Assembly: GCA_023897205.1 (NCBI GenBank)
Contig: JAHWDD010000033.1
Coordinates: 124,001-188,000 of the forward strand
Length of the DNA: 64,000 bases
Direction: 5' to 3'
Origin: Exophiala sp. HKRS030
Lineage: Eukaryota; Ascomycota; Eurotiomycetes; Chaetothyriales; Herpotrichiellaceae
Shown: piece after piece, positions 1,836-64,000 of the stretch
Layout of the letters: each line of letters starts with the position of its first letter
How positions within the stretch are numbered: the stretch's first letter is position 1
Program-made: the position numbers and the translations under genes
The notes under the pieces: model-generated
Database searches by the model: none
Told to the model about the DNA's origin: nothing
The model's input: the letters and a program-made list of their open reading frames with translations, nothing else

Positions 1836-3015
1836 GAGTGTATTTTGCATTGCTAACTACCAGCGCCGCCGAATGGGACGAGGTGAGTAGTTAGCACTCG
1901 GCCGCGGCCGCCTCCGAAGTCTTTGACTCTAATTCTCAAGAAGAGAGCTCGCGATTGACGCCGTCTCTATACCTCGCTATCGCTGCCCACCTGCGGTCGG
2001 AAAATATTGTCGGGTCGTCTGTCTGTCTCTAACATTCCAGGCGCCTTCCCCTCGGCCTTATATTCCGGGACCGCAAGGATGAAAGCTAGATTAGATTATC
2101 TTCGATGGAAGCTCAAAAGATCTACACTATACTGCTGCTTCTCCTAACTATATTAATCGCCGTGTTAAGCGACTTCGGTTACCGTAATATCAATATGTGG
2201 AGAATAGTCGGGGTTATGGCGAAAGGACTTTTCGTTCCCCTGGTCTATTCTAAAGGGATGCATAACTACAATGGAGCTACCCGACAGTGACAGTGACAGT
2301 GACGGCGATAACGAGAGCAATAGCGATGAAAGAGATCGTCATACTTGCCACAATACCAACGGTTCTATCGAGAGGGAAGCGGGAGCAGCGGCCACGTCTG
2401 CAGCAGAGACATCCGTGACGAGACAGACTCCGAAGCGTCAGTAAGCCTGATCCTCCTACCAGGGGTCCAGTCCAATCGACTACCGTCGGTGCAGACAAAG
2501 CCGCCTCCACAGCAGCCTCAAACTTAGAGGAACCGCAGACACTCTCCCCGGCATCCCAACGGGAATTCCAAGCACAGCGTCACCTATCATGTTGACTTTC
2601 TCGTACTCTGCTACCTCGCCATTCTTCTCAGTAGCTACGTCCTCTCTCACGTAGCATCCAACCTCATCGGGTAAGATTAGCATCTCTGACGTCCTCTTCG
2701 GCGTCGTCATACTCTCCATAGCCACGACGTTGCCGAAAAAATTCACCCCCGTTATCAGCGGATACCGAGGCCACGCTGGCGTCTTGGTCGCTAACACGGT
2801 GGGAAGCAACATAGTCCTATGAAGCTTGTGCATGGGCGTCCTATGGGTCAGTACTGGGGGGTCGGTATGAAGCATTCCATGAATGAATGCCTCGGTGCTG
2901 GGGGTCATGTTGGGCTCACGCTAGCGTTGACGTTTGCCGTGTGGTTCGGAACAAGGTGGATGCGGAAACAATCATCATTGTTGGTGTTGGCATAGGGTGT
3001 CCTCTTGAAGCTAGC
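1836..3015 (+). pseudogene. Decayed copy of the Na+/Ca2+ exchanger family gene at 5626-6872
   Basis: Pieces of an exchanger can be read in order in shifting frames. Around 1836-1880 is LLTTSAAEWDE followed by GTGAGT, matching LLTAGGEWEE followed by the intron in the intact gene. Then come NIVGSSV (intact NVVGSAI), PLGLIFRDRKD (intact SLGLLFHNKD), a hydrophobic IYTILLLLLT stretch at 2119, an acidic loop SDSDSDGDNESN near 2290, YVLSHVASNLIG near 2635, then SDVLFGVVILSIATTLP (about 2680-2735) and YRGHAGVLVANTVGSN (about 2765-2812). In-frame stops and at least three frameshifts break it. It lies about 2.6 kb from the intact copy in opposite orientation, so it looks like an old inverted duplicate. 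Family: CaCA cation/Ca2+ exchangers. No product is expected. Confidence 0.85.
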
Positions 3016-3070
3016 GAGATGCTGCTGTGAAGGGAGTATATAGTGAGGACGTCTATCATCTCCAGTCCTA

Positions 3071-3715
3071 CTACAAAATTCCAACGCCGACAGCTAAGCC
3101 AAGAAGGGTCGTACCAAGAATGTAAACGCTGGATAGACTCTTCCGTACGCTCGAGTCAGCCACTGCCGCCGTCTGTGTCGCTCCTTGACCGGTTGATGCA
3201 GATGACGCCGCCCCGGTTCCAGTCGTCACTGGCTTTGTTGCGGTGACCGTGATTTGTGCAACAAGAGCGGTCACAGATGGAGCGTACGAAGTGCTCGAGA
3301 AAGAACAGGCCGACATGATGTTATTCATGTCTAATTGAGAAATTTATGTCAGCAGACCGAATACACCGTCCAGATCTAAACCCAACATACCATCTACAGT
3401 ACCGTTTGCATTCTGTTGGAGGCAGCTGGCACAGAGAGCCGCGATAGACGACACGTTGAAGCTTGTATTGGTGCAAATGCATTGAGATTCGAAGGCTTCA
3501 TCGGGCTCCAGAGCATTATCGTCGCCGTCATTCTCGCCACTGCTGTCCTCAGCGGGACGCGGATCAACGTCGCAGATGTTGGTCAACTGAACGATTGGCT
3601 GGCAAATCGTTGAACAAGCGCTAGGCACGTCGCCGGCATCGAGTTCTTCAGTGGAAGAGATAGAAACAAACAAAGCCGTCTGAAGGAGAAGAGCGGTCAA
3701 AAGTGCGGAATGCAT
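3071..3715 (-). CDS. GPI-anchored Cys-rich cell-surface protein, 2 exons
   Basis: Exon 1 is 3715-3391 and exon 2 is 3330-3071, joined across a 60-bp GTATGT...TTAG intron that contains a CTGAC branch-like site; the product is 194 aa. The start was chosen because the ATG at 3715 begins a clean signal peptide (MHSALLTALLLQTALFV); the longer upstream frame lacks one. The mature part has a spaced Cys pattern (CSTICQPIVQLTNIC, CICTNTS, CASCLQ, SACSFSSTSY) seen in a common family of fungal surface proteins with eight or so Cys and a C-terminal GPI signal. A Ser/Thr/Ala-rich stalk follows, then a hydrophobic tail (SVYILGTTLLGLAVGVGIL) fitting GPI attachment. The likely role is a cell-wall or plasma-membrane protein of unknown specific function. 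An acidic insert (ENDGDDNALEPDE) sits between the Cys clusters. Confidence 0.8.
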
Positions 3716-4299
3716 GAGGTAGGAATTGTGTGCGCGAGGAAGCTGTCGATACTCAAGAGAACCTTGCTCATTATTATTTTTCCGTGGGCAGAAACTGGGT
3801 ATAAATATACAGTCTCCATCCAGGAGCGCGAGGCCAACGGGGACATAACACATTGGACACAACCACACCTCTAAGGTCTACGGAGCGCGCTACACTTCGC
3901 CGGCTAAGGAGTTGAAGCATAAACAAGACATACCAAGAATCAAAGACTGTCAGAAATTGTGTCGTTAAGCTTCTGAAAGGTCTTGGCAACTGCTCCGTCT
4001 ACCACTCTACTGCCACCTCCTCGTGCTTGTTACAAATGCATAAAGTCTCACCAGATGCGTGGCGTTATTTAGCTTGCGCAGCCTTCTTGGCTGGCCAGGT
4101 CAAATGCATTTGTTCCGATGAGTTGCCTTGACTTGAAACTGACGGCGGTCAACTCCTTACACTGTGGTCCTTTCCTGACGCTACGTTGTGTATGAGAATA
4201 TGCGGAGTGCCACCTGACAAGCTCCGCCCCCAGGGTTCAAGCTAGCTGGGCAGCTGGTGATAACGCATTAGATTCGGATACAATGCTACCACGTTCTCT
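3716..4299. other. Upstream region of the GPI-protein gene, no gene seen
   Basis: It should hold the promoter of the minus-strand GPI-protein gene. A TATA-like stretch (TATAAATATA near 3799) lies on the strand opposite to that gene's sense. No convincing ORF was found. Confidence 0.4.
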
Positions 4300-5231
4300 C
4301 AAACGTGTTGCCTACATCTGACTCCAACAAACTATTTGCCCTGGAATTAACTATCCAGATACTGCTCACTTGGATGCGGCTCGGCGTGGACAGGATCTTA
4401 TATACCGGCTGCGCTCATAACGCTCGGGCCGGATGTGAGACAACAGTTGCTCTGGTAGCAACTTGTCAGACAAATGGCGGAGGTGGACATCACAACATTT
4501 CGGATGATTGAAGCGAGGGAAGATGGTGATAGTGGTATTCGCCTGCTAATGTTTCTGCTTCGCTCAGTGTCGTTGTTGCTGAGTTCCACTCACTTGCTTA
4601 GTGCGTCAAAGAATACCTACCCAAGGCGACGAAAATGCTAATGCATTCACTGTCTACCAAGACGGAACAATGATAACTACTGCTTCCCCATCATACAACC
4701 AACTTACAACGTCTATGGTAGGCGGAGCAAGTCCATCGATAACTACGGCGGCTGCCAATGGGCCCCGGCCCCAATCTCGAGGATTTTCACCTCCTACTGG
4801 TTATATCTTAATTGTGCTAGTCTCTGTGGCTAAGTCTTTAAAAGGAGCCAGTCTTCGTGAATTCAAGGAGTCAGACCGCTCTTCAGCCATCGTCTTGATC
4901 ATAATCCTGGGTGGGTTATATCATTCTTCGCCAGAAGCCCAAGAGGCTGGTTGAGGGAAACGAATCTGCTGCCAAATACCACCCTCAAACCCATTCAAAC
5001 TGGTTTAGACATGGCCACTCGCACCCTAAGCCGAGAGTCGGCACCAGCGTCATATGGGGTGGAATGTCTGATAACTCATCATACAACGCACCAAGTGAAG
5101 CGATGCCGCCTATTGGAGCTGAGCTGCCTTTATTGGTTCCGACAACAGCGCCTCGCTTACGCCCGGAGTTCGCTCCTTTGAAGTCACAGGAGGATAAGAT
5201 GGTGGTTGGCCACCAGCTGCACCGGGTATGA
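4300..5231 (+). other. Possible multi-exon or broken gene for a single-pass membrane protein
   Basis: Three successive plus-strand frames look protein-like but do not join cleanly. 4305-4511 has a Cys-containing segment (GCETTVALVATC) and a glycine/histidine run. 4601-4880 has a Thr/Ser-rich stretch (YQDGTMITTASPS). Next is a hydrophobic segment SAIVLIIILGG at about 4885, and one base out of frame the basic tail YIILRQKPKRLVEGNES, followed by a Pro-rich tail to 5231. The order (extracellular Ser/Thr part, one membrane helix, basic stop-transfer, cytosolic tail) is that of fungal Mid2-like or receptor-like proteins. The frame change at 4908-4914 (GGTGGG) means a pseudogene, a base error or an intron I cannot place. 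No family is claimed. Confidence 0.3.
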
Positions 5232-5625
5232 AAAAGCAACGATCTCGAGAAAAGATAGCTGGGCTAATACTGTCTGTCCAAGGACAGTAGAAGGTCAGAA
5301 GTGAAAATATTCATATCAACCTGAGATAGAGGTTCCATGAAGATGTAAAATGCAACGGAATGGAATGGGAATTGCCCAGTTGAATATCCGCGGGAGCATT
5401 GGGCCGAGTTTGCAAAGTAGGATCCAAGATAGAAGAGTGTGGTACAGTAGTGTTTAGCTCTCCTCTAAGCCTTAAGCACCTCGTCTATGCTTAAACTATG
5501 CTATGTGTATTTATTAAATGTCGGACGGATGAGCTTACATCGCGGTCTCCCGTGGAACGAACACCCCGTCCCGCGCATGAGGCAAGTGGCCAGTTTTCCT
5601 TTGGTGCCTCATTAGTAGCATCTAG
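5232..5625. other. Intergenic, no gene seen
   Basis: It lies between the uncertain membrane-protein region and the 3' end of the exchanger gene. Only short unsupported ORFs are present; it probably holds the 3' UTR of the exchanger. Confidence 0.4.
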
Positions 5626-6872
5626 TCATCCCTTCACTACACTATGGATAACTGTAAATTCCAGTACGATAAAAGCAACATAACCAACCAACATCGCGGC
5701 TCCAATCCACCGACAATACCTTCCGCCAGACCAAACCGTCAATGTAAAGGCAAGGGTTGAACCCCATAGTACTCCTAGCTCGGGGACTTTCACGTTGCCT
5801 CCTTCAAAGGAACCCGATGTGTCGAGCATGATAATCCCTAAACAAAGCGAGAGGAGGAAGATATTGCTACCTGCAGTATTGGCGACAAGAATACCGGCAT
5901 GACCTCGATGCCCGCTGAGGATCGCGACAAATTTCTCGGGAAGTGTAGTGGCGATTGCGAGGATTATAACGCCAAAAAGCACATCGGAGATACCGAATTC
6001 GTCCGTAATGGTGGTAGCGGCGTGAGAAAGCACGTACCCAGCTAGGCATATAGCAAGGAAGCCAAGGACGAGGTAGGAAATATGATAACGTAATGTGCGT
6101 CGTTTACGGCGAGTGATCGGAGCTGGGGCCGCCGGAGATGAGCTGCTGATTTGAGCTGCATGTTCATTCGATTCGCGCTCAGCAGATCCGTGTGGTTCGT
6201 CATTGTTTCCATCGGAGTGGTCAGGTGTCGTCTCAGCAATGTTGATGAGGTTGTCTCTATCGCTGCTCTCATCGTCACTGCTCCCCTCGTCACTGCTGTC
6301 ATCGTCGGAGTCCTCTGGGGCAGTTAGACTCCCCCTACTTATTGCCCACCCTATAGACCCAATGTAGACCGCAAAGAAGGCAATCAGAATCGCGCCGCAA
6401 GCCAACCATATAATCTTCCCCGAAAAGTATATAATCGGCGTCACAAATGTTGTCAGGACGAGTAGGAGGAGGGAGTATATTCGAGAGCTCCTGTCGAATT
6501 CAATTGGTGCGTCCTTGTTGTGAAATAGGAGACCAAGCGAATATGCCCCTAGGATATTCGAGATAGCCGAGCCGACGACGTTACCAATGGCTAAGGACGC
6601 CCGACCACGAGCAAGGGATGCAACAACAACTGCAAGCTACGGCAAAAAGTCGAATAAGCCACTGACAAACCACCGTGGGTCAGAAAGGGCGCATAAACTA
6701 CCTCCTCCCATTCTCCTCCAGCAGTAAGCAGCCCGATGATCGTCTCTGGTATTCTGGTGCGCCGAGCGACGATGGCGGTATGATCGATAAATTTGTCGGC
6801 GCCGAATTCTAGGAGGAAGAGGGTTGTAATAAGAACGGCAATGTTGTATGCCACCACATCAGCGTTGGCCAT
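5626..6872 (-). CDS. Cation/Ca2+ exchanger (Na_Ca_ex family) membrane protein, 2 exons
   Basis: Exon 1 is 6872-6702 and exon 2 is 6636-5626, with a phase-0 65-bp intron (GTAGTT...CCGTAG); the product is 393 aa. The start ATG at 6872 (MANADVVAYN) leads straight into the first membrane helix; the frame extends upstream but adds only non-conserved sequence. The two Na_Ca_ex repeats are visible: RIPETIIGLLTAGGEWEE with GNVVGSAISNILG in the first half, and SDVLFGVIILAIATTLPE with GHAGILVANTAGSN in the second. They are separated by a long acidic Ser/Asp-rich cytosolic loop (EDSDDDSSDEGSSDDESSD). CaCA proteins exchange Ca2+ for Na+ or H+ across plasma or organelle membranes; the ion and membrane used here are not shown. 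Its decayed relative lies at 1836-3015 on the other strand. The cupin gene diverges from it across 6873-7272. Confidence 0.9.
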
Positions 6873-7272
6873 CTTTGTTGGCGAAAACTTCGACACGCTC
6901 CTATAGCCAGACGAGCGGGGAGAGAAGAAGCAGGAAACTTTTAATGCCGTCATCGTCAATTCATTGCATGTGGGCTGCCTTCCCCACTCCAATCTGTAGC
7001 GTTGATAAGGTTTTTCCCTAAACGGCTCGGGCGGCGTCCTAATTTTGACGTAGGTGACTTCGGAGTAGGATGATGTATGTATGTATGTCTGTGAGGTAGC
7101 ATGCGCATTTGCTGCCGGGTCTTGGTAGATCATTTCGTGACGAAATATGGATTATCCGACCTTTTACATCAGGTATTTTGCTTTTGGTGATTAGATCATA
7201 CCTAGCCATCATTGTCGTTGTTTTGTCTCTTCGTTTTACCACAAAGCTATCTTCTTCAACAGCAGTGGGAGA
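6873..7272. promoter_or_regulatory. Shared upstream region of exchanger (-) and cupin (+) genes
   Basis: The two genes are divergent with 400 bp between their start codons, so their promoters must lie here. A four-copy ATGT microsatellite is at 7073-7088. No specific operator was recognised. Confidence 0.5.
7073..7088. repeat. ATGT microsatellite, four copies
   Basis: Perfect ATGT repeat in the divergent promoter region of the exchanger and cupin genes. Confidence 0.8.
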
Positions 7273-8184
7273 ATGCATGCTGTTGTTCTTCGTGATATTG
7301 TACAGACTACTCGTAATACTGCGAACGGATCCCCTGCTTTGACTCTGCCGTCGGTTTCAACTGCACTTCGATACAAAATTCGCTCGCCAGTTGTTGCGTG
7401 TCGGCATTCATCACAGACGAGGGCCTTGTCTTCCTTGACCGACGCAGCAAGTCGTCGATCGGTTGCGCCGATCAAAATCACAGCTCCTAGATTCACCGGT
7501 ACCAACGCCGTCGCCTCCACCAGTGCCATCCCTCTTCGAATTCTACGCAGGAACTCGTCAAACACCGTAGCTGCCGCAGCAAACATGGCCAAATTCCCAA
7601 CCCCGTCATTGGACCCGCCGAAGAACGAGATGTATTACTTCCCCAACATGACCACAAGCTTGCCGAGCGAGAGTGGGGATTTCCGGCGTGTCTTGTTCAC
7701 TGGGCTATATTCGCAATTGGTATTGATGACGGTGCCTGTGGATGGCGAGATTGGCGATGAGGTAAGTCGGGAATTTTGCTCGTTTAACCACCCATGGTTG
7801 TGTCCTTTCATTCATTGTCATTGTCCTTTTGCCGAGCCGAAACTGACACCGGAAATTGTTGTAACTTAGAAACACACAGTCGATCAGATTCTGACCTTTA
7901 CCTCCGGTCAAGGCCGCGCGACAATTGCTGGGAAAGATCAAGATGTCAAGGCTGGTGATTTGATCATCGTGCCGGCGGGAACACAACATCAGTTCATAAA
8001 CACAGGCCCAACTCCGCTCATCTTGTACACTGTGTACTCACCGGCTGAACATAAGCCAACTTCTGTCCACAAGGATAAGGAGCAAGGTGATCGTGAGGAA
8101 GAAGAGGGGATCGATGTGCCGCCAGAGTGGAGTCAGAGAAGCAAGGCAGAGAATGAAAAGTTGGGCTTGGTCGAAGGCGAGTGA
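7273..8184 (+). CDS. Cupin-2 domain protein, possible mitochondrial leader, 2 exons
   Basis: Exon 1 is 7273-7761 and exon 2 is 7870-8184, joined in phase 0 across a 108-bp intron (GTAAGT...CTTAG); 267 aa from the first ATG. The cupin barrel is clear: DQILTFTSGQGRATIAGKD, then GDLIIVPAGTQHQFINTG, which fits cupin motif 2 (P-x-G-x-x-H-x3-N). The segment before it (EMYYFPNMTTSLPSESGDFR) resembles small bacterial-type cupins. The first 104 residues are rich in Arg, Ser and Ala with no acidic cluster, as in mitochondrial presequences. An internal ATG at 7585 in good context (AAACATGG) would give a 163-aa protein with the cupin alone. The tail is acidic and charged. Enzyme activity cannot be predicted from the fold; cupins of this size are often metal-binding sugar or small-molecule enzymes. 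Confidence 0.85.
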
Positions 8185-8374
8185 AGTTTCTGGGCATAGG
8201 ACGGTTCTCCTTCGTTCTGAAGACAGGCCTTCCTGATAGCTCGGTAGTCATTGCTCTCGTGAGCACACTCTGTGCCTTTGGTGCGCATGTAGTGCCTCTA
8301 AATATACTTGGCACATGCTTTCAAACCTCTTTCTCTTACGGCGTTCACTGGATGTAGTACCGACGATTTGTTTC

Positions 8375-9027
8375 TCATCTCTTCTTTTTGCTGACGACCT
8401 TTGTGAATCCATCCTCGTCAACTTCTGGCTCAACCTTCTGCTTGGGAATACCTGCGTCAACAAGAGGTGGCGCCTCGTCCATTTCGACATCAGCAGCAGG
8501 CCGATCCGAAAATCCATTCCATTCCTCCTCTTCATCACTGTCGTCCCAATCTGTGTCCTCAGCTTCCTGATCTTGTCCTCTCACGATGCCTGTGACTTGA
8601 TTTCCCCCTTCTTCTGCTTCTCCTGAAACTTGGCATACAATTCATTCAACTCGACCAAATCACCACCTTTTAATTTATTTACTCCGCTCCAAATATTCCT
8701 CGCTGTCTCTTCAGCACTATCATCGTCGACGACAACTTCGAACTCATCCACCATGACTTGTAGGAGGACTTCTTCCAGATCCGAAACATCGGCCAGTTGC
8801 GCAGGAGAAGATGTCAATAGTTCGGACACGGCTCCTGCGAACCAATCTCGCTTGTCGTTGGACACTTGACTCGAACCTCCCCATGAATTCTGGATAGCGA
8901 GGGTCAGGGCTGGCCAAGCCCACAAATGTAAGGACACAAGGAGGTCAATCTGGGAGATTAAATCGGAGGCGGGCGTGGATGGGGTAGGAGAGACCGGCAC
9001 GGGGCCTGAGCGATTTACTTGGGCCAT
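8375..9027 (-). CDS. TSR2: Pre-rRNA-processing protein TSR2 (frame broken by one base)
   Basis: Tsr2 is the escort chaperone of ribosomal protein eS26 and is needed for 20S pre-rRNA processing. The N-terminal part (9027-8610) has the family pattern: LWAWPALTLAIQNSWGGSS with the WGG motif, then WFAGAVSELL, and a helical region ending NELYAKFQEK. The C-terminal part (8600-8375) is the expected acidic tail (DTDWDDSDEEEEW) ending DEDGFTKVVSKKKR, the usual Tsr2 terminus. The two parts are in different frames. One extra C in the C5 run at 8604-8608 would join them into 217 aa; no GT-AG intron fits. A base error is more likely than real loss because the tail is perfectly conserved. The gene is divergent from the SDR gene. 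Confidence 0.85.
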
Positions 9028-9524
9028 TGTGCATTGTTATGAGACTGTGGTGCGTCTCTTGATTGTGGTAAAGATTGCTTCGAGGAATTCAAGAAAAGTT
9101 CCCAAAAATTTCATGTGGGGATCGGGCCATTCTTCGCCGAACAGAGCGCGACGTCTGAATTGGGAAGTCTTGCCGGGAATGATCTTCGTGGGGTTGTCAC
9201 TAGCTGGTCAGACACTCCAAATGTCATGTCATCGACATGTCGCAGTGTATTTGCCACGATTTGCACACAGATCTGGGTTAAAATGAGCTGTCAGACGATG
9301 TATATTTTTAACCCCCAGCATCAAGAAACCACATCGGAGCACAGGCGTCCGCTTTACCGTCCTTTGGTATTTATGGCTACGTCTACTAACAGTTTCCTAC
9401 TATTCTCTTCTCATGATTTCTGACACTGAAGGTTTGTCACGTTCCCTCAGCCTCCTTGCTTCTTCCTCCTAGTCTTGACAATCTGAGGATACCAAAGTAC
9501 TGTCGAAGCAACCTCAGTATCAAA
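9028..9524. promoter_or_regulatory. Shared upstream region of TSR2 (-) and SDR (+) genes
   Basis: 497 bp separate the two divergent start codons. Pyrimidine-rich tracts (CTCTTCTC near 9405, CTTGCTTCTTCCTCC near 9454) precede the SDR start, as in many fungal promoters. No specific site was identified. Confidence 0.5.
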
Positions 9525-51287: not shown

Positions 51288-54265
51288 CTAGACTACTTTA
51301 TGAATATCATTATCCATCAGAATCCACTTTCTTGTTTCTATTTCTCCTATATCTCTTGACACAGAAGCCCCTTCTCTATTCCCCTTACAGCCCACATTAC
51401 GACCGGTCGAATTCACCCTAACCGCATCCGCGACCCAACCCATCTCGACCGCACTCACACCGCGCGCATAAGCCTTTGTGCCCGTATACACAAACTCATT
51501 ATACATGATGGCCTCGAATTTCTTGACGCCCCCGCCAGCACCAGCACCATTTCTGCGCCTCCCATTCCCATTGCCAGCATCACCACCACCGCCCTGGTCA
51601 TCATCATCGCCATGCCCTGGCGCACCGCTGTTAGGAACCGCGAATAACACACTGCTCGGATGGATGGCGACGACCTGGTTCGTCAACAGTGTGCGGTAGC
51701 TGCCGTCGTGCGAGAGGCGTGCCACGTTCGTGTGGAAGCCCGTTAGCAGGCATTGCAGGATGCGGCGGGGGAGGGTTGTTGGGTCATGCGGAGCGGTCGC
51801 GGCGGTTGTGGTTGTGGTTGTGGTGGTTGTGTTAGTTGTTCTGGTGGTGTCGGTCTTCATCGCGCCTTGATCACCATCTCCAGCCTCACCAGTGGCATCA
51901 TGGTCTGCGTTCCTGATTCCCTTACCCTTGCGCCGTCGTTGCGACGAGGTGTATCTCGCCATGATACCCAGCAACTGTTTCCTCACATCCATGGCCCCGC
52001 TCATGGCGCGATGGCTGATGAAGCGCGCCGCGCACCAGCGTTTGCGGTCGGAGTTTTCATTCGCGTAGGCTTGCATTGCTGCTAGCAGGGTTAGGTGGTC
52101 GCCTTCGCGTCGGTAGAGCTGGCGTCGGAGGGTTTGCGCGGTGGATTCGTGGTTCAAAGATGATGGGTCGGTGGGGTCATGGTCTTGAGCGTTGTCTACT
52201 CGAGTCGTGGCGGCTGCATTGTCAGTGGTGGTGGAATGTGAGTGTTGTTGGATGTTGAGAAAGACATTCTCGACGCTCAGCGCGGATACGATGTCGACGA
52301 TCTCGTCGACGCATCCGTATTCGGGTGACGTGCTGGCGAGCAGGACTCGGGCCAGATTCGCGGGGAGGGGAGGGCGCTCATTTCCCGGCCTAAGGGGGTG
52401 ATTGAGCCGGTTGACGGATCGAGAGCGGAGAGTTGTAGCAAGTGCACGAGGGCACGCTCTAGTGCTCGTGCAGGCGGTTCTGTCAGAAAGGGGAAGGTAT
52501 GCACGTGGTCGATACCGTGTGCTTTGAGCGTCAGTGCCAACTGGGACAGGTCGCAGCGCAGGATCTCCGGTTGCGTGTCTTGCGCGAGTGTCCAGAAGGC
52601 GGCTTCTGTGTACAAGCGCCATGCTGTTCCGGGAGCGTCTCGACCTGCGCGGCCGGAGCGTTGGTTGGCGGAAGAGCGCGAGATGGGGACTGTCAGCAGT
52701 GTGTCGAGGTTTAGTGATGGGCGGAACAGTCGTTGTTTAGCTTTGCCTGTGTCGATGACGTGCCGGATTCCAGGGACTGTGATACTGGTTTCGGCAATGT
52801 TGGTTGATAGAATGATTTTGCGTGTGAATTTGGGAGTTGGGCTGAAGACGCGTTGTTGTAGGGTGGATGGAAGTGCGGCGTAGAGAGGGAGCAGGAGGAG
52901 TTTAGGGAGCGTTCGAGAAAGGGACAAGTCTTTGGCGATGGTGTGAGAGTAGGATGTGAGGAGGTGGAGGAGTGATTCGACGGTTTCTTGCCCTGTGAGG
53001 AATACGAGGACGTCGCCCGGCAGAGGAGATGAAGTATGGATGTGAATGATTCGTTGATAGGCGGCGTCGAGGATGTCTGGGACGGGAGTTGGTGTGTAGT
53101 TGATCTTGACTGGATGTTGTCGACCTTTGATATAGAGGGATGTCGCTTTGGATGTGGAGGTTTTGATCGACGATATGTTGAATGGCTTCGTCTTAGTTGT
53201 GTCCTTGTTATCATCCGGCTTGTCATCGAAACCGCCCCATTCTTCGTCGTCTTCCTCGATTTTGGAATTCGATCCATTGACAGGTTTCTGTGAAGCGCCA
53301 TCTCCATCCCCACTCTCGTCCGTTTTCGAAGAGAAGAAATCCTGAATCTTTTCCATATCCGCCGTAGCACTCATAACAACAACCTTTAAGGGCACACCAC
53401 CGCGCCCATCACCTCCACCTCCAACTCCATCTGTACCTTTACCCTGCTGCAATCTCTGCAAAAACCCCAAGACCAAATCAACATTAACACCCCTCTCATG
53501 CACTTCATCCACCACAACAGCCGAATACTCCTTCAACCACGGATCGCGCAACATTTCCTGCAACAACATTCCCTCGGTAAGAAACTTGATTCTCGTGCTC
53601 GGACTCGTACTATGCTCAAACCTGACCGAATACCCTACTAGCGAAGCAGGACTCGCATTCCCCAGAGGTGTGCCCATTTCTTCGGCGACACGGCGTGCGA
53701 GGGAGATGGCGGCCACTCGTCGAGGTTGCGTGATGGCGATGCATCCGCCCACAGCGAAGGGTTCAGATTTGCCATCGGTCTTGGGTATCGGTTTCGCCGT
53801 CGCCGTCGATGTCTTAGTCTTGACTGACTGGACCTTCTTTCTCTGACACCAAGACTCGGTGACCAAGAACTGAGGAATCTGCGTCGATTTACCCGACCCG
53901 GTCTCACCTACGAGGAGCAAAACATCGTGATCTCGTAGTTTCTGGCGAATGGCATTGGCGTGTGCGTAGATGGGCAGTTTTTGCCGCACGCTGAGTAGCT
54001 CTTGTGCACGTTGTTTCAATGATCCAGACTTATTCTGCCTTCTCGCATCCGAGGGGGCTTTCTCGAAAGTACTTTTCGAATTATTGTCGTGATCGTCGCC
54101 ATCGTGGTTGTCTTGTCCATCGTGAAAATCCACGGTCTTGGCTCCCGTGGATTGGGTAGTATTACCGCCATTTGACGCTTTTGAATTACTGGATCGGTGT
54201 TTGCTCAAGAACGACGACTGTTTCTCGCCAAAGGCGGTCTCGGCAGAGCGTTTATTGCTTTTCAT
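51288..54265 (-). CDS. DHR2: DEAH-box RNA helicase, Dhr2-like (frame broken by one base)
   Basis: The ATG at 54265 opens a basic N terminus, then LSVRQKLPIYAHANAIRQKL just before the helicase core. Motifs in order: Walker A GETGSGKS, ITQPRRVAA, DEVH (motif II), MSAT (III), LPGDVLVFLTGQE, TNIAETSITVPG (V) and QRSGRAGR (VI). The winged-helix/HA2 and OB-fold parts lie in the next frame (RVLLASTSPEYGCVDEIVDI; EAIMYNEFVYTG). The frames meet at the GGGG run 52367-52370 (CCCC on the coding strand); one extra base gives 992 aa without introns. Dhr2 acts in 18S rRNA maturation in the nucleolus; the name is inferred from overall architecture and the LP-x-Y entry motif. Long acidic and Gly-rich insertions and a poly-Thr run (near 51830) are species-specific. 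Confidence 0.85.
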
Positions 54266-54904
54266 GGTTGGATATTAGGTCCTTGTCGGCGACATGTTGT
54301 GGGAATGCAGCAGGTCAATTCATGATTTTCTGGAGGGAAAAAAGTTCACGAATCGGAGGCAATTATCACAGCCTCGTCGGCGAAAATTAATGCCGGTCTT
54401 GGCATCAGCATCGACGTACCGCCTACGAAGGAATCAAGTTCCCGTTGGGACACTTGACTCTTTTCCTCCTGGACTACCTTGTATCGGCGTTGGATTCTGG
54501 ACAATTGTTGTATCATAGCCATCAGATAGTGACTTCCCAGTGCGCTGGTGAAAAATTCTATCTTTGTCAGGAAATTAGATTTGTATCGATCCCTTGTCAG
54601 TCTGAGCCTGGAGTGGCTTTCGGACAATGGCAGATTCAAAGCCTGTCGCGGGGTCTACTGCCTCAAATGCTTTCGACCTTTACAATCAGGTTCCAGATGA
54701 CTAACTGACAAGTCTGTATTGAGCACAAAGGCTATATGCTTCCGGAAAGGCTGCCACCGACAGCACTGGACCTCATATGCCGAGCTTTGTTAGACGCCAC
54801 ATCCTTGTCTGGGTATTCTTATGCATTGATATCATGAGACGTCGTCTTTCCAGATATCATCCACCATCTCTGACAGTGGGCTCCACCTCGCCTATTCGAT
54901 GTAA
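54266..54904. other. Intergenic between DHR2 and kinase-ankyrin genes
   Basis: It includes a 25-codon ATG ORF at 54627 (CAATGGC context; MADSKPVAGSTASNAFDLYN) ahead of ACTAACTGAC, which resembles a branch site, and an antisense 97-codon frame without an ATG start. Neither is secure. Confidence 0.35.
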
Positions 54905-57900
54905 TCAGGTTGGGGATTGCGAGTCTTCCGCAATAGCTAATGATTCTATGTTCGGTACCATCTCCCCCTGGCTGACGTTCTCGCCCTCTGTAGGTGACGT
55001 CTCGTTCCTGACATGGCCATCCTCCGGGCCATTATCGTCAAGCTCTCCAACCGCAGCGGTGCTGTGACGCTGTAGCCGAAGTGGCCATGCTCCTTGATGA
55101 GAGCTTACCTCAGCTCTGAATCCTTGTCCGAGAACGGGGATCAGCAAAGAGCCGAGAACGTCGTCTCCAGGATAAACAACATTAATCCCTGCAGCTTCCA
55201 TCATTTCTCCGTCATTACTTTCACTGCCCAAAACTGCGCCGGCATCCTGCAGGACCTCAATGATTGCCTCAGTGCGTAAACCCCAGTCGCGCAATTCACG
55301 CTGTCCGCCTAGTTTGATGATGTCTGGGATTCGTCGACGGCGGGTCAATGCAAGATTCAATGCGGTTCTGCCCGGGATTGAGCTGGTTATTTCAATTCTG
55401 GGATCCGATGGCGTTGGTTTGGCTTGTACAGTTTCGATGTTGATATCGACCTGACCTTGTGATGTTGGATGGTTCAACATTGTAGTGATTGCGGCCAGAT
55501 TTCCACGCATGACCATCCGGTGCAGAGGTGTGAGGCCATATGCGTCATGTTCGTTCAAAGCTCCCGGTGGCGCTCGAGAAATTATGTATTCGAGTAAAGC
55601 ACGATCGAAGGCTGCATAGTCTGGTCGGATGGCAGGGTATTGGTTGGCAATCACCTCCAAGATTGTGGTGCCATGACGTACATTGTTGACAAATGTGAAA
55701 GCACCAACACTTTCCAGAAATCTGATAGAAGTGAAGTTGACTATGTGACGATAATTCGTTACAGCAGCGGTCAGTACCGAGGCGAACAGTGTATAACCAT
55801 CGGGTTCACATGACTCGACCGTGGTTGCGAAGAGTCGCTCTGGGCTGCACGCGTCAGGCTGCAGAAGTCGTGATGCTGATTTGAAAGCTTTGAAAAATAT
55901 AGCCGATTGAAATGGAGTTCGACCGTCGTGTGATCGGGCGTAGGGATCGCATCCAAGACGTAGAAGTACCTCGACGAATCTCGGATCATCTCCAATGACT
56001 GCGGCATGAAGTGCAGTCATTCCCCTGTCCGACGTGTATTTCAGATCAACATATGGACTTGAAGACAAATACTCGAATACACGCCAGCTGGTGCAGTACA
56101 TAGCGCGCTGAAAGGCATTTCTCCCGCCGAATCGTTCTGTATCCTGGAATATTGCTCGAATATCGATTCCCTGCTCCAGGCCAAAGGAGATTACCCGAAG
56201 GAGCACGTCTAGGTCATCACCGATAACAATGTCCTCCAGTATATTCTTGCGTTTGTTGAGCTGCGCTGTGCTCAGCCGAAATGGATCTGCACCAGCCTTT
56301 AGAAGTACTTCGAGAGTATTCATCTTCGCTAGGTCGTAATTTGCTCTATGTATCAGCACATGTTGTATGCCGAAGTCATCCGTTAGGCAAGAGGCAAGGA
56401 GCTGGTCCAGCTGACTTGGACCAAGCGGGATCTCATTCGGGCTCAGCTGTGGAACCAATGGAATCAGAGCTTCGAGCATATGAGACTGATGCGTAGAGGC
56501 CAAGCTTTCCAGCACTTCCTCAAGATCGACGACCTTTGCAGAGAACTTGAGATGGATGTCCAAAAGTTTCAAGAACAATCTTTCGTTCGGCTTTCTCGCA
56601 GCCCAGTGTAATGGAGTACCACTCAATCTCTGAAAGGGGTTCTCCAGGCAAACACTCCGGCGGTTAGCAATTGAACTTAGCTGAGCAGGATCTCGGACGA
56701 TGGTATCTGCTATACTGTCCAAGAAATCATCCTCGACAAAAGATAGAAAATGTAAAGTGGTGAATTTGAAAGCACTGCTTTCAACGCAAGGGTTGGCTCC
56801 ACGTTGCAAGAGCAAATCGACCATTTCACCATCGCCGCAGCTGGCGGCAAGTTGTATAGGGGTAGACCCAGTCCAATCAACTGTATTGATATCTGCACCT
56901 TCATCAAGAATACTTTTCGTACCATCTTGGTGGCCGAATGCGACGGCAAATTGAAGTATTGTATAGCCAATGGGAGGGAATTTATAATCGATGTGAAGAT
57001 CTTCATTGTCAAGACGGTCTGCGATTCGTTCGAGCATTGCCTCTGGATTCTTTGAGCTTCTCAGAATGCCTCCTCTTTGCCTTCGAATGCGTCGTGCCGC
57101 GTGATAGAAATTCTGATTGCGATCTTTAAGAATTCTGGATGTTTCCACACATCCACCCGAAGCCGTAATGAGAAGCCATAGTTCTCTCAGGACGTCTTTT
57201 GGTTGGTCGAATTTTGAGTGTCCAAGGGCATCATCGACGACTGAGAAATATATTGCATGATCCAATCTTCCGGATCGTGCTGCTATTGCTAGCCACTTCC
57301 TTGCCGTGTAGAAGTCATAGTTCGTACCGAAGCCTATGGAGTAACTCTCTGCAACCTGTGTAGCCGCTTCTAGGGCTCTTGATATAGTCTTCTTATGGAC
57401 TTCAATTGGCATTATGGGCTGGGAGCTTTGAGAGATTGCAGTTAGGATGTTGGCATAGTCTAGGTCCGTTGAGGTACGAATATTGTCATCGATTTCTGCA
57501 AATTTCAAATCAAGGGCCGGGGCGGCAATCTTTTCCAAGGCTCGAAGCATACGTGTCTTGAAGAAGGGATGCATATCTCGCAATCTCTCGTCTCCGACCT
57601 TTCAACTGTCAGATTGACATATCACATAATGTCGTTTGCGCTTCACGGAAAACTTACACGGGCCATTCTGGATTCGGACACCTTTTGCTTTCTATCAGTC
57701 ATATTGTCCGAATGATTATCACGATTGTTCTTTGATGCGACATAGTCATCCTTCCTGTGTCAGCAACGTAGATCCCGTCAGTAAATGTCCCCTGAAGAGT
57801 GAGGCTCGACGCAAAGGGAGTAGAAGCTCGACAAGATTTATGCCGGGATCATGTATTCAAGCTGAGCGACGAGCGCAAAAGACATACCTTTGCTTTTCAC

Positions 57901-59131
57901 CAGCGGATGCCAACATTTCTAGTTGCCCTGAAACTAAAGCATGCATAGAGTGTCGCTTCTCAGGTTCCCTCCATAGACATGCAGCAACCACGAACAATGC
58001 GGTTATATTTGCCAAGTCGTCCTCCTTGGTAAACGCTTTTGCCCATTCTAAGCCCGAGACCAGGACGAAATTATTCGAGTCTTGCTTCCAGGATAGGACT
58101 TGGGACTGAATTTCATTCTGTGGCTTTCCATCCAGCTCATAAATGCGTTGAAGGAAGCAATCTCCAAGTCCTGTTTTGTTGGCGTTCTTGTACCAGATTC
58201 CTTGAGCCAGGATAGCTAAAGCACAGAGACCGAAAGAGTAGACATCTGTTTTCTTCTGGTCGTATTTGGCAGTTTCGTAGCATTCCGGGGCCCTCCATGT
58301 GTGAGTGCCGCCGATAGGGGCCCAAGAATGCTCATTGTCAGCAAGATAGATGGAATCGGAAAAGTCGGACAATTTGGCGACAATCCGGCGTTGTGGGTGT
58401 GCGAAGACCAGTATATTCCCCGTCTTGACATCCCCATGAACTATTCCGACATCATGAAGAGCTTCCAAACCCAAAGCAATATCTAGTACTAGGTGTGCTG
58501 CAAGTGAACCGTGATCTTGCAGATTGGCATCGAAGAGTACGTCTTTGAGTGTACCATATTCTGCAAGTTCCAGGCCAAGCGCAACAGCTGGGGCGTATGA
58601 CTCCCATCCAACGAACAACAATTTAGAGACGTTTTCATGATCTCGGAGCGTTTTGTGACAGAAGACGCGAAGTTCTCGCTTGATGAACTCATACTGTTGA
58701 GGGGTCAAACCAGCATCATCGTCATCGAGGCGCTCAACGAAGCATCGCTTCAATGCCACACGATCGCCTTTTCGAAGAACGCGATTCTGCAATTGAACAT
58801 CTTCTCTCATGGAATGGAGTTCAAGAAAACTGGATGCACCTTCTCCGAGATTGAACGAAATATACATATTCTTTTGTTGCCATTCCTGAGGTTCAATGCC
58901 TGTACTTGCTTCCAGTTCCAGTTGATGAACATCATGTTCCAACACCAGGGAGATCATTGCTATGAAGTCGACTGGCTCTTGCCATGGTGTTGAATTCGAG
59001 GATTGAGAAGCTTGCTCAACCGTCGTTGGTTGAGGGTCCGAGATACCTTCTTTTTGATGCTCTTCATCTGATGAAGCTCTTGTTGGAGGAGCAGGCACCT
59101 CCAAGCTCATAGATGGCAACGATATGTCCAT
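54905..59131 (-). CDS. Protein kinase fused to ankyrin repeats, 3 exons
   Basis: Exons 59131-57888, 57754-57658 and 57598-54905; 1344 aa with consistent phases, so kinase and ankyrins are one protein. Kinase domain, residues about 90-400: glycine loop LGEGAS (95-100), VALK with Lys 128, HGDVKTGN with Asp 234 and Asn 239, then SDFS in place of DFG (Asp 256), and WRAPE (280-283) with DVYSFG after it. The key Lys, both Asp and the Asn are present, so it is probably active, though the DFG glycine is Ser. A linker follows, then a helical middle region and many ankyrin-like repeats (DGTKSILDEGADINTVDWTG, GMTALHAAVIGDD, YGLTPLHRMVMRGN). Architecture resembles RIPK4/ANKK1. Its divergent neighbour is a HeLo-pseudokinase; 519 bp separate their start codons. 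Confidence 0.9.
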
Positions 59132-59650
59132 GTTTGATTCTCATCGAAAGAAACAGGGCAGTGCTCAAAGTGCTTTTCCCTGCAGGGCTGCGTGTGATAA
59201 CATTCGATGGACCAGGATGTCTTTTCAAACACGTGTCATGGACTCACGGCTCACAGTAATGGACTCGGCACTTGACATCGATCCAAAGATTGTCCTGCTG
59301 ACATTGGAAAACAAAAGGGCCTTGCGAACTCTCGACCTGCATACCACTCCTTTTCAAATCACACGCAGATGAACATTGAAGCAAGTTTCGTATCGTGTGC
59401 TGAGGAAGACGTCTTTGTCGAAGCCCAAAGTGGAAGGGCGAGCTGGCCGAAGATGGCGGTCGTGGCTGAATCGTGTGGCCAATAACGCCGGCCAAACTCA
59501 CAACCAAGAGTTCTAGACTTCAGCCTTTTGAGACATGTTCCTTCCAACATCGGATCTGCTCAACATGCATAATCACACTTGAGTGATTTTGATTCGAAAT
59601 ATTTTTCACGACTCCCTGTTCTGCAAGAGCTTCCACAACTTGGCATCTTG
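59132..59650. promoter_or_regulatory. Shared upstream region of kinase-ankyrin (-) and HeLo-pseudokinase (+) genes
   Basis: 519 bp separate the two start codons. No specific operator was recognised; co-regulation is an inference from the arrangement. Confidence 0.5.
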
Positions 59651-61354
59651 ATGGAAGCCGCGGGACTCGCCATTGGGGCCATTTCGCTCCTGGCGGGATT
59701 CAAAGGAGCTGTGGACGGTTACAATCTGATTGCGGATATCACTTCTGCGTTCGAGGGTGCCAGCTTTTTGATAGTCAAGCTCAAGGTTGAGAATGAGCGA
59801 CTGCGGATATGGGGCGATTACTATGGATTCAATGACCAGGAAAAATGTGCCAGACTGAAGTCAGTCTCAACGAGCACGCAGAGTCTGATGTTGTACGTCT
59901 TGATGGAGATGCAGATGACGACGACGGATGTTGATAAGTTGGTCAAGAAATACGGAGTGCAAATGGTCGAAGTTGAGAAGAACTTGCAGACTGATCCAGA
60001 TCTCTATCAGTCAGCGTGGTCTGGAAGTTCTTATGTCAAAGATATTGCAAGGGCACAGGCCAACATGGACAAAAAGGGTCTGGGATTCCGGAAATCCGTC
60101 CGATGGAACATCACCGATGGCTCCAAGTTTGAGAAGCTGGTTGATCGATTGGAATATCTCAACGATAGTCTTGAGAGGATGGTTCCACGCTCTGATATGG
60201 AGATGCTGGCTTTGGGCTTGTCGTCCTACATCCTGCCAGGCCAGAACAGTAGGAACTCGCTCGTCACGTTACAACATTCCAACCTACAGCTTCTTGCTTC
60301 TTGCGCCACTATGAAACAAATCAAACTGGCATCTCGGAATATATCTGCAGCCATTACTACTATTAGCGACGACGAGGTGGATCAGGGCACTCCTCTTCCG
60401 GATCCCCTTGCTGTACGTGTTCCAGGCACGTGGACTCGACCTTCGGATTCAAATCTGATCGATGTTCTCATCGAATGGCAGGAGATCAATCGCTCACTCC
60501 CACAGAAAGACCGGGATTTGGTATACTCACGGATCAAAAGTCTAGCCAGTCTTTTGGAAATGTCGAAACCGTCCATGTTCTGTCTTTTACCATGTGTCGG
60601 AATCATTGAAGATACCAAATATGCCAATCAGTACACCGGCCACAAGCGGGTGGGATATGTCTTTGCATACCCAGAAGACACCTCACCTCATACACAACCT
60701 GTCTCTCTCCATGACATGATCCAGTCAGCCAGCATGACCAAAGACAAGGCAAGAAAGTTCGCTCCATTAGGCGAGCGCTTCCGCCTAGCCCAGTCCCTAG
60801 CATCGTCGCTTCTCCTTCTACATTCCTCGAAATGGCTGCACCGGAATCTTCGAAGCAGCAACATTCTCTTCTTCACATCCAAATCTTCCCAACCCTCATC
60901 AACACCATCAATCCACTCACCTTACCTCACAGGGTTTGAGTTCTCCCGACCAGACCAAACCGGAGAACCATCAATAACAAGACCACATCAGTCGTCGTCG
61001 TCATCCTCCTCATCCACACCAGCGATGGCAGACCCCTATCTCCATCCATCCGTGGCATCGCCCACACCTGCAAAATCCAGCCGGTTAACGGACATCTACG
61101 CTCTCGGCGTGCTGTTGTTTGAGATTGGCATTTGGCGGTTAGTATCTACATATGCACAACCGACAGCGGAGGCGACACGAGATATGTTGCTGCACAATGT
61201 GCCGTTACTTCTTCCAGGCAGCATGGGTCAAGTATACGCGAACATTGTGCTGCGGTGTCTCAAGGGTGATTTTGGACCAGGAGCAGAAGGCGACGAGCTG
61301 GACAAGGCGTTCTGGAAGGATGTAGTCAGGGAGCTAGACGGTTGTAGAGCATGA
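59651..61354 (+). CDS. HeLo domain fused to a kinase-like (pseudokinase) domain
   Basis: Single exon, 567 aa from the ATG at 59651; the frame is open upstream to 59579 but without an ATG. Residues 1 to about 215 form a HeLo domain: a hydrophobic first helix (LAIGAISLLAGFKGAVDGYN), then LIVKLKVENERLRIWGDYYG, and the family pattern RWNITDGSKFEKLVDRLEYL. HeLo is the N-terminal membrane-acting bundle of HET-S and is structurally related to the MLKL killer bundle. Residues about 265-565 resemble a kinase but lack its catalytic residues: HRNLRSSN (397-404) has Asn where the catalytic Asp should be, GFE replaces DFG (428-430), and no glycine loop is seen. The C-terminal lobe (DIYALGVLLFEIGIW) is kept. 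A regulated cell-death effector is likely; the trigger is unknown. Confidence 0.88.
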   Translation: MEAAGLAIGAISLLAGFKGAVDGYNLIADITSAFEGASFLIVKLKVENERLRIWGDYYGFNDQEKCARLKSVSTSTQSLMLYVLMEMQMTTTDVDKLVKKYGVQMVEVEKNLQTDPDLYQSAWSGSSYVKDIARAQANMDKKGLGFRKSVRWNITDGSKFEKLVDRLEYLNDSLERMVPRSDMEMLALGLSSYILPGQNSRNSLVTLQHSNLQLLASCATMKQIKLASRNISAAITTISDDEVDQGTPLPDPLAVRVPGTWTRPSDSNLIDVLIEWQEINRSLPQKDRDLVYSRIKSLASLLEMSKPSMFCLLPCVGIIEDTKYANQYTGHKRVGYVFAYPEDTSPHTQPVSLHDMIQSASMTKDKARKFAPLGERFRLAQSLASSLLLLHSSKWLHRNLRSSNILFFTSKSSQPSSTPSIHSPYLTGFEFSRPDQTGEPSITRPHQSSSSSSSSTPAMADPYLHPSVASPTPAKSSRLTDIYALGVLLFEIGIWRLVSTYAQPTAEATRDMLLHNVPLLLPGSMGQVYANIVLRCLKGDFGPGAEGDELDKAFWKDVVRELDGCRA

Positions 61355-62376: not shown

Positions 62377-63018
62377 TAGGTATCTCTAGTATGTATACAG
62401 TATCTACGACGTCATCATTTTTTATTTATTTTACATCTTACCACGTAGTGCCACGTTTAGTCTCGATGGCCACTGGCACACGGCACAGGGCACACGGCCC
62501 TTGCTCAAGCCTCAGTAACACTATTCCTCAGCACCTCATCGCAATGTACTCCGTCTCTTATTATGGGTCCATCTCTGTGGGTCAACCGTCAGACGTGATC
62601 GTGCCGTGCGTGGTGCACGTCCACACGCCTTAGGTATGCATTGGCAGCGACGGCGCCCGCTGAGGCGGCGATCTTTGATGGACTTTTTCTACCAACTGCT
62701 CTAATTTCGCTCTTCATGTGGTTCTGTCAGGTAGGCAGGCGCTTTTGGTGATGAACCTACCTTATCTACCTATGTAGGCTCACCTAGCAGGTGCCTAGGT
62801 AGGCGGTTTTGTCGTCTTTCTAACAGTTGGGATTCGGTCGTTCTACTCCTAATACCGACTTAACAGGTAGATTGTCCACGGTAGTGTCCTGTCTACTCTC
62901 TACTATTTCTGTACTCGTTTCGTGACTGAGGCACGAAAAGCGTTGTACGCTGCGAAAGAATCCCCTTCTGTTCTGCGGCGACATACAGTCCTTTTTCTGG
63001 TCCACGACCTCATCAGGT

Positions 63019-64000
63019 ATGGGCGAGCAGTCATCTCAACATCAGGGCCTCGCGCCTCAAACCCAGCACAAGGCAACATATACCGAGACTCGCCTACAGC
63101 AGCAACCTACTCAATCCCAATCCGAATCACAACCTGAACCGCAAGCCTTTCCCTCCCCATCAACAATCGAAATCACACGTCGCAACGACCTCTCCCCACT
63201 ATACCACATCCTCCGAACGATAATCAAACCGTTACGGCCCAAACTCGCGAGCGCCGGTCAAACGCAGCCCGGCGGCTCGATCCGACTGAACCCACCGAAA
63301 AAAGGCGACCTCGAATTCATCGAGGCACAGGTCGAGTCCGTGTGGCAGTATACATATCGCACGAAAGCCTCTGTGGCGTCTGCGTCGGCATGCAGAACAA
63401 ATGGGACCCTTTCGTCGGCCAAGAAGAGGGTCGTCCATCGCATCTTCTACTTCCATGGGGGCGGGTTCCAGATGCGTCCGTCGAACCAACATCGTGTGTT
63501 TCTGAGACAGTTGTGTCGGCATCTGTATACGCGGACGCATGTGGATGGTAGCGGGAAGGACAGTACCAATGTTGACAAGAAAGGACCCAAGCAAGACCAA
63601 GACCAAGACCGTGTAGAGCCACTGATCACACTCGTATCGTACCCATTGGCGCCGCACTCGCCAGCGTACGAAAGCCTCCCGATTCTGCAGAAGTGGCTGG
63701 CAGCGACTCTGGATGACGCGGCGCGCTGTGGCGACAAAGTCTCGTTAATGGGTGATTCTTCTGGGGGCAACCTTGCGTTGAGTCTGGGCTTTTGGGCGTC
63801 GATGAATTATCATTGTCGTTATTCGCCGTCGTCTCGGCTGCAACTGGCAGGGGACCAAGGTATGGCGAACGACGGTGCCGCAGAAGAGGAGGAAGATGAG
63901 AAGAAGAGCTCATCGCCACAAAAATGTCCATTAGTTTCCATCATCGTCATCTCCCCTGCGGTGGATCTGCGCAACGTCAACCCGGACATTCAGCGCGTCG
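63019..64000 (+). CDS. HSL-type alpha/beta hydrolase (3' partial)
   Basis: The ATG at 63019 starts a frame open to the right edge, 327 codons seen. The N terminus is Gln/Ser/Pro-rich and disordered. The alpha/beta-hydrolase_3 core follows: RIFYFHGGGFQMRPS with the HGGGF oxyanion motif (146-150), LITLVSYPLAPHSPAYESLP, and GDSSGGNLALSL with nucleophile Ser 247. PLVSIIVISPAVDLR comes near the edge; the Asp and His of the triad would lie beyond the window. An acidic insert (AAEEEEDEKK) separates two strands. Relatives hydrolyse short-chain or lipid esters; the substrate is unknown. A hydrophilic insert of about 30 residues rich in Lys/Gln/Asp sits between HGGGF and the SYPL strand. Confidence 0.88.
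   Translation, partial: MGEQSSQHQGLAPQTQHKATYTETRLQQQPTQSQSESQPEPQAFPSPSTIEITRRNDLSPLYHILRTIIKPLRPKLASAGQTQPGGSIRLNPPKKGDLEFIEAQVESVWQYTYRTKASVASASACRTNGTLSSAKKRVVHRIFYFHGGGFQMRPSNQHRVFLRQLCRHLYTRTHVDGSGKDSTNVDKKGPKQDQDQDRVEPLITLVSYPLAPHSPAYESLPILQKWLAATLDDAARCGDKVSLMGDSSGGNLALSLGFWASMNYHCRYSPSSRLQLAGDQGMANDGAAEEEEDEKKSSSPQKCPLVSIIVISPAVDLRNVNPDIQRV

Follow-up and report, generated by a model that had tools for sequence, protein, structure and literature searches.

A recurrent head-to-head gene pair of Exophiala encoding a kinase-ankyrin protein and a HeLo-pseudokinase, a candidate kinase-controlled cell-death module of fungi

Do fungal genomes hold gene pairs in which an active kinase could switch an executioner that itself carries a dead kinase? 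The question is raised by two divergent genes of Exophiala sp. HKRS030, one coding for a protein kinase fused to ankyrin repeats and the other for a HeLo domain fused to a pseudokinase, which lie in a 64,000-nucleotide stretch of its genome (GenBank contig JAHWDD010000033.1, positions 124,001 to 188,000; hereinafter the window, C30:124001-188000 in our numbering of the 50 contigs of this 59.8 Mb genome). We find here a genuine two-gene module that recurs and is conserved; the pairing is not accidental and is commoner than chance. That they are functionally paired appears to us highly probable, and we favor, with more reserve, the reading of the pair as a regulated-cell-death module in which a sensor kinase would switch a HeLo executioner via its pseudokinase.

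The HeLo-pseudokinase gene is a single open frame on the forward strand, as are all its features given here, running from an ATG at 59651 to a stop at 61354 (59651..61354, 567 amino acids) and supported by homologues. Its HeLo domain (residues 5-182, 59663..60196) is recognized by the Pfam HeLo model (PF14479, E 9.7e-28) and by a profile match to HET-s (2wvn, E 6.1e-22), and HET-s ranks best for this N-terminal part both by sequence and by fold. In the structural models it is mainly helical, with an N-terminal helix spanning residues 2-28; the MLKL four-helix bundle is not among the 50 matches listed for the HeLo model in the fold comparison, though the two may still be related. The pseudokinase domain occupies approximately residues 240-567 (60368..61351) and is delineated by Pfam, profile match, models and fold. 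Here the Pfam protein-kinase models stay below their cut-offs (Pkinase E 6e-4), and DUF7580 (PF24476) matches residues 344-539 with an E-value of 1.4e-11 and 45.1 bits against a cut-off of 27; profile and fold comparisons recover a kinase fold. The nearest similarity is to DUF7580 proteins of fungi, a family on which we found no paper in the open-access literature. By motif alignment, HRN (residues 397-399, 60839..60847) replaces the catalytic HRD, and GFE (residues 428-430, 60932..60940), also found in MLKL, replaces DFG.

The partner lies on the reverse strand (54905..59131) and codes for 1344 amino acids in three exons (59131-57888, 57754-57658 and 57598-54905) separated by two introns. This splice model is supported by homologues (P0041-P0044), since those of Zopfia rhizophila, Trichoglossum hirsutum and Chaenotheca gracillima (66%, 63% and 47% identity, respectively) are co-linear with it over nearly the full length. 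The protein kinase domain (residues 121-401, 57929..58771, reverse strand; Pfam Pkinase E 6.8e-22) has all its catalytic residues, namely Lys128 in a VALK motif, Asp234 in the HGD motif (232-234), Asn239 and the metal-binding Asp256, the last in a DFS rather than a DFG motif. It is followed by an ankyrin-repeat region, whose best Pfam stretches (Ank, Ank_2, Ank_4 and Ank_5) fall between residues 653 and 1011 (55907..56983, reverse strand). The start codons of the two genes bound a shared upstream region of 519 bp (59132..59650). A first-pass annotation made from the sequence alone had described this shared region, the catalytic Lys, HGD Asp, Asn and metal-binding Asp of the ankyrin-fused kinase, and a HeLo domain joined to a kinase fold lacking the catalytic Asp and DFG; each of these assignments was borne out, including the kinase fold of the C-terminal part, on which the annotation had staked its interpretation.

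Is this arrangement peculiar to the window? The HeLo-pseudokinase as a query gives 16 matches genome-wide, which we count as 15 pseudokinase-family genes, while the kinase exon gives 32. Seven of the latter, the window's own included, have E <= 1e-12, and every one of these seven adjoins a pseudokinase-family gene in head-to-head orientation. We scanned the 10-kb surroundings of the remaining 14 pseudokinase genes, two of which fall in one of the 13 stretches. Counting the window's, nine of the 15 family members have a kinase-ankyrin gene beside them in head-to-head orientation, the other loci being L023 (C1), L024 (C2), L025 (C7), L026 (C3), L027 (C8), L028 and L034 (both C5), and L029 (C10). 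The facing open frames in these pairs are separated by 100 to 1512 bp (measured between start codons in the window). A tail-to-tail pair at L030 (C10) brings the pseudokinase-family genes with a kinase-repeat neighbor to 10 of 15: there (3247-5718, forward, and 5890-9228, reverse) a kinase-TPR gene faces a gene that, in one open frame, codes for an intact-looking kinase and then a DUF7580-like pseudokinase, with no HeLo match. Given the 346 kinase candidates of the genome, of which 120 were scored, the binomial chance of 10 among 15 genes having a kinase within 5 kb is about 1e-9, a figure that is a guide only because duplicated blocks are not independent events.

A HeLo domain scores above the Pfam cut-off in seven of the nine head-to-head pairs. 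No Pfam HeLo match is found at the N-terminus in L029, L034 and the two genes of L031, the L034 scan having covered just the open frame nearest the pseudokinase, such that an upstream exon could be missed; in profile comparisons L029, L034 and one of the L031 genes align with the later part of the profile only. The five genes without a kinase-repeat neighbor in the scanned 10-kb stretches are the two in L031 and those in L032, L033 and L035. In L031 the two pseudokinase genes are in tandem (2976-7373, reverse), with a different kinase (411-2214, forward) approximately 0.76 kb away, tail to tail. L033 has an ordinary-scoring kinase approximately 6 kb past the pseudokinase gene on the same strand, and its own 1176-aa open frame (3794-7321, reverse) combines the DUF7580 pseudokinase with a C-terminal part that bears a GDSG stretch and has no Pfam match. 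This stretch is reminiscent of trypsin-like proteases, and the protein may be a pseudokinase-protease fusion.

The pair is also present beyond this genome. In Trichoglossum hirsutum, GP486_004597 (HeLo-pseudokinase, 75% identity) and GP486_004596 (kinase-ankyrin, 63%) carry adjacent tags and have the same contig size, 11480 bp, and in Chaenotheca gracillima this also holds for M4579_002076 (HeLo-pseudokinase, 55%) and M4579_002077 (kinase-ankyrin, 47%), with 107629 bp each. The profile search of kinase relatives, in which 120 of 324 matches were listed, adds two cases where the contigs of a HeLo-pseudokinase and a kinase are equal in size, P0004/P0081 (711592 bp) and P0006/P0083 (4783 bp), suggesting that the pair exists there too. 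Partners are thus recorded for four of the first six HeLo-pseudokinases listed (P0001-P0006). P0002 has no kinase partner among the matches listed, the contig of P0005 measures 1268 bp, and equal-sized contigs point to no kinase partner for the other 34 HeLo-pseudokinase matches among the kinase matches listed. Zopfia has a kinase match and no entry of that name among the HeLo-pseudokinase matches listed. The homologue searches scored just the candidates with the most words in common, and a missing partner there does not amount to absence. Linkage in other fungi is read from adjacent tags or equal-sized contigs, the head-to-head orientation itself having been seen in the window's genome alone. 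We take the closest named relatives, among them Trichoglossum, Zopfia and Chaenotheca, to be filamentous ascomycetes; the prokaryote and viral collections yielded no useful loci (three bacterial loci in one search, none in the other). The first-pass annotation had named beforehand a lack of linkage in relatives as grounds for abandoning the proposed pairing; what we find is linkage in two named fungi by adjacent tags, in two further cases by equal-sized contigs, and nine head-to-head pairs in the genome itself.

What might such a pair do? The active-site residues differ between the partners. All ten kinases have both catalytic aspartates, the catalytic loop being spread over two open frames in L028 and L034; the beta-3 lysine is seen in six of the ten, is lacking from the aligned column in L025, and lies beyond the local alignment in the remaining three. 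Their ten pseudokinase partners have all lost the DFG aspartate, and nine of them the HRD aspartate, L023 (2006-3817, reverse) being the only one of these paired pseudokinases to keep the latter, with its DFG aspartate lost. Judged by these motifs, a split between a predicted active kinase and a predicted dead one holds in 10 of 10 pairs. Moreover, an intact-looking kinase and a pseudokinase are joined in one chain in three proteins, namely the L030 frame, P0035 and P0038 (Fusarium albosuccineum), with DUF7580 scoring below the Pfam cut-off in L030 and P0038. The pseudo-activation loop offers a candidate phosphosite in Ser441 (60971..60973): among 25 aligned rows its column holds Ser 22 times (Asp twice, Gly once), and a Ser or Thr stands there in 10 of 12 sequences from pairs and in 24 of 38 across the wider family. 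This conservation is only suggestive, and Ser441 is no more than a candidate. The HeLo-pseudokinases P0011, P0013 and P0018 have Asp at this position, unlike most of their relatives.

From the layout we infer that the two proteins act together, with the signal running from kinase to pseudokinase. The kinase-ankyrin protein would be sensor and switch, its repeats binding a cue upon which the kinase becomes active. The active kinase would then have the HeLo-pseudokinase as its target, the likeliest step being phosphorylation of the pseudokinase activation loop, possibly at Ser441; this would free the HeLo bundle, whose N-terminal helix might attack the fungus's own plasma membrane and thereby bring about cell death. 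Such a phosphorylation mechanism is, on the whole, probable.

The main rival turns the sign of the interaction around, either sign being compatible with these data: the kinase-ankyrin protein might be an antidote or guard whose binding to, or phosphorylation of, the HeLo-pseudokinase holds it in check, and death would follow when the kinase is lost or mismatched, upon cell fusion or under attack, as in gene-complex incompatibility. The tight and recurrent head-to-head linkage fits the co-inheritance of a killer with its keeper equally well as that of a sensor with its effector, and at the het-B incompatibility locus of Podospora anserina, too, two unlike genes lie side by side (PMC10890737). 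The retention of the catalytic aspartates in all ten kinases suggests that catalysis matters, but inhibition too could be catalytic. We regard the antidote role as unlikely, if still deserving of serious attention.

Somewhat more doubtful is the idea that linkage reflects shared regulation or ancient block duplication alone, with the kinase having other substrates and the HeLo-pseudokinase another trigger, such as a NOD-like receptor (NLR), a ligand or a membrane state. Head-to-head genes can indeed have a promoter in common without interacting, and the paralogous pairs, with identities of 18-40% between their kinases and 22-36% between their pseudokinases, could stem from a single pair. A mirror-tree test of co-evolution gave a weakly positive, set-dependent signal, a weakness that also suits this view. 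Yet despite such low identities the block has stayed together at nine scattered sites, and in two more named fungi as well, which argues for selection for staying linked, and kinase-pseudokinase fusions occur. Against it stand also two sets of control matches, four to HeLo away from pseudokinases and four to DUF7580 outside the pseudokinase family: in neither set is a kinase found within 10 kb, as judged by eye from incomplete kinase match lists.

The preferred reading, a sensor kinase switching an executioner, brings to mind animal necroptosis, and we asked how far the resemblance extends. The PDB sequences matched by the window's kinase number 912, and the best 60 include LRRK2, MAP3K12, B-Raf and Roco4 and no RIPK. 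The RHIM-like core [IVL]Q[IVL]G, the one amyloid motif searched for, does not occur in the kinase-ankyrin or HeLo protein of the window, nor in six homologues. The pseudokinase matches MLKL by sequence (4btf, E 8e-8) along with IRAK4 (6.8e-8) and LIMK1 (1.1e-7), and its fold matches in Foldseek are headed by MerTK, with MLKL (7jxu) at rank 9; MLKL as its uniquely closest relative is therefore not supported, as these others score alike or better. Hence, membership by descent in the animal RIPK-MLKL pathway is most improbable: it has in its favor the MLKL domain order, the GFE at the DFG site and the presence of MLKL among the solved structures matched, but MLKL is not singled out among these, and neither the best PDB matches of the kinase nor the motif search gives any sign of RIPK kinship. 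The first-pass annotation had seen in the pair a possible fungal counterpart of RIPK-MLKL, of which the active/dead layout stands in 10 of 10 pairs and the relationship to RIPK is not supported. The likeness to necroptosis is thus one of logic rather than of shown descent, as the kinase shows no RIPK among its best 60 PDB matches and no RHIM-like core; as such it makes a good hypothesis.

In that logic, the window's putative executioner shares an architecture with MLKL, including that of plants, which also have MLKL homologues: a helical bundle, here a putative killer domain, stands at the N-terminus, helices come next, and a pseudokinase forms the C-terminal part. Further shared features are the loss of the catalytic and DFG aspartates and, in the pseudo-activation loop, a residue with a hydroxyl group. 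The GFE motif at the DFG site is documented for MLKL in PMC5104457 and PMC6013482. The protein of the window differs from MLKL in having a HeLo-subfamily domain rather than the MLKL four-helix bundle, and HRN where MLKL has HGK. As with RIPK3 and RIPK1, an active kinase is expected upstream, and we take the kinase-plus-ankyrin layout to resemble RIPK4/ANKK1; unlike the RIPKs, the kinase and executioner genes are here adjacent and head to head.

Closer parallels in gene layout come from fungi. As in HET-S/NWD2 and HELLP/PNT1, a HeLo or HeLo-like executioner gene lies beside a controller gene, but the C-terminal control domain here is a pseudokinase extending to the C-terminus and the neighbor is a repeat-bearing kinase instead of an NLR. 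The link between HELL and MLKL was reportedly drawn by Daskalov 2016 (PNAS). In PMC12881547, fungal death pathways are described as frequently encoded in two- or three-gene clusters, with some HeLo executioners controlled by NLRs via amyloid templating and others part of the NLR itself; gasdermin genes cluster with protease genes, many of them fused to WD40, ANK or TPR, and in one two-gene cluster such a protease was shown to activate the gasdermin. We accordingly liken our module to a kinase counterpart of the gasdermin clusters, as in both a repeat-fused enzyme (with ANK, TPR or WD40 repeats in the latter) is encoded beside a known or putative pore-former, with a kinase in place of the protease and a HeLo-pseudokinase in place of the gasdermin. 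An executioner gene beside a repeat-bearing enzyme gene, linked across species, is one mark of a two-gene cell-death cluster and is what we observe. A figure legend of PMC12881547 notes that some HELL domains are joined to a kinase or pseudokinase domain, a composition that recalls MLKL; with HeLo/HELL-pseudokinase fusions already in print, the executioner architecture is not new. For the recurrent kinase-repeat partner we found no description among the papers listed in searches of one open-access library.

Two other frames of the window flank the pair. Beside the kinase gene, an open frame on the reverse strand (52277-54274) has GETGSGKS and DEVHERG stretches and presumably codes for a DEAH-type RNA helicase. 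A forward-strand frame (63000-64000) with HGGG and GDSSGGN stretches, continuing past the window's end, looks to us like an alpha/beta hydrolase.

A recurrent kinase and HeLo-pseudokinase pair would add a kinase arm to the control of fungal HeLo domains, and with one candidate kinase, one candidate substrate and one candidate site the question becomes testable. It also supplies a rule for genome mining, namely to seek sensors beside HeLo-pseudokinases. More broadly, we posit, with our confidence evenly balanced, that filamentous ascomycetes might carry multiple copies of head-to-head pairs in which a repeat-bearing kinase would phosphorylate a HeLo-pseudokinase to cause membrane-lytic death, resembling the step from RIPK3 to MLKL without an amyloid relay, each pair being a small module complete in itself whose sensor repeats (ANK, TPR) can be exchanged. 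Fungi may thus possess a death switch that is thrown by a kinase and arranged in the manner of mammalian necroptosis. If this is true, kinase-switched death by a helical bundle would be known in fungi as in animals, and it could be asked whether the arrangement is ancestral or convergent.

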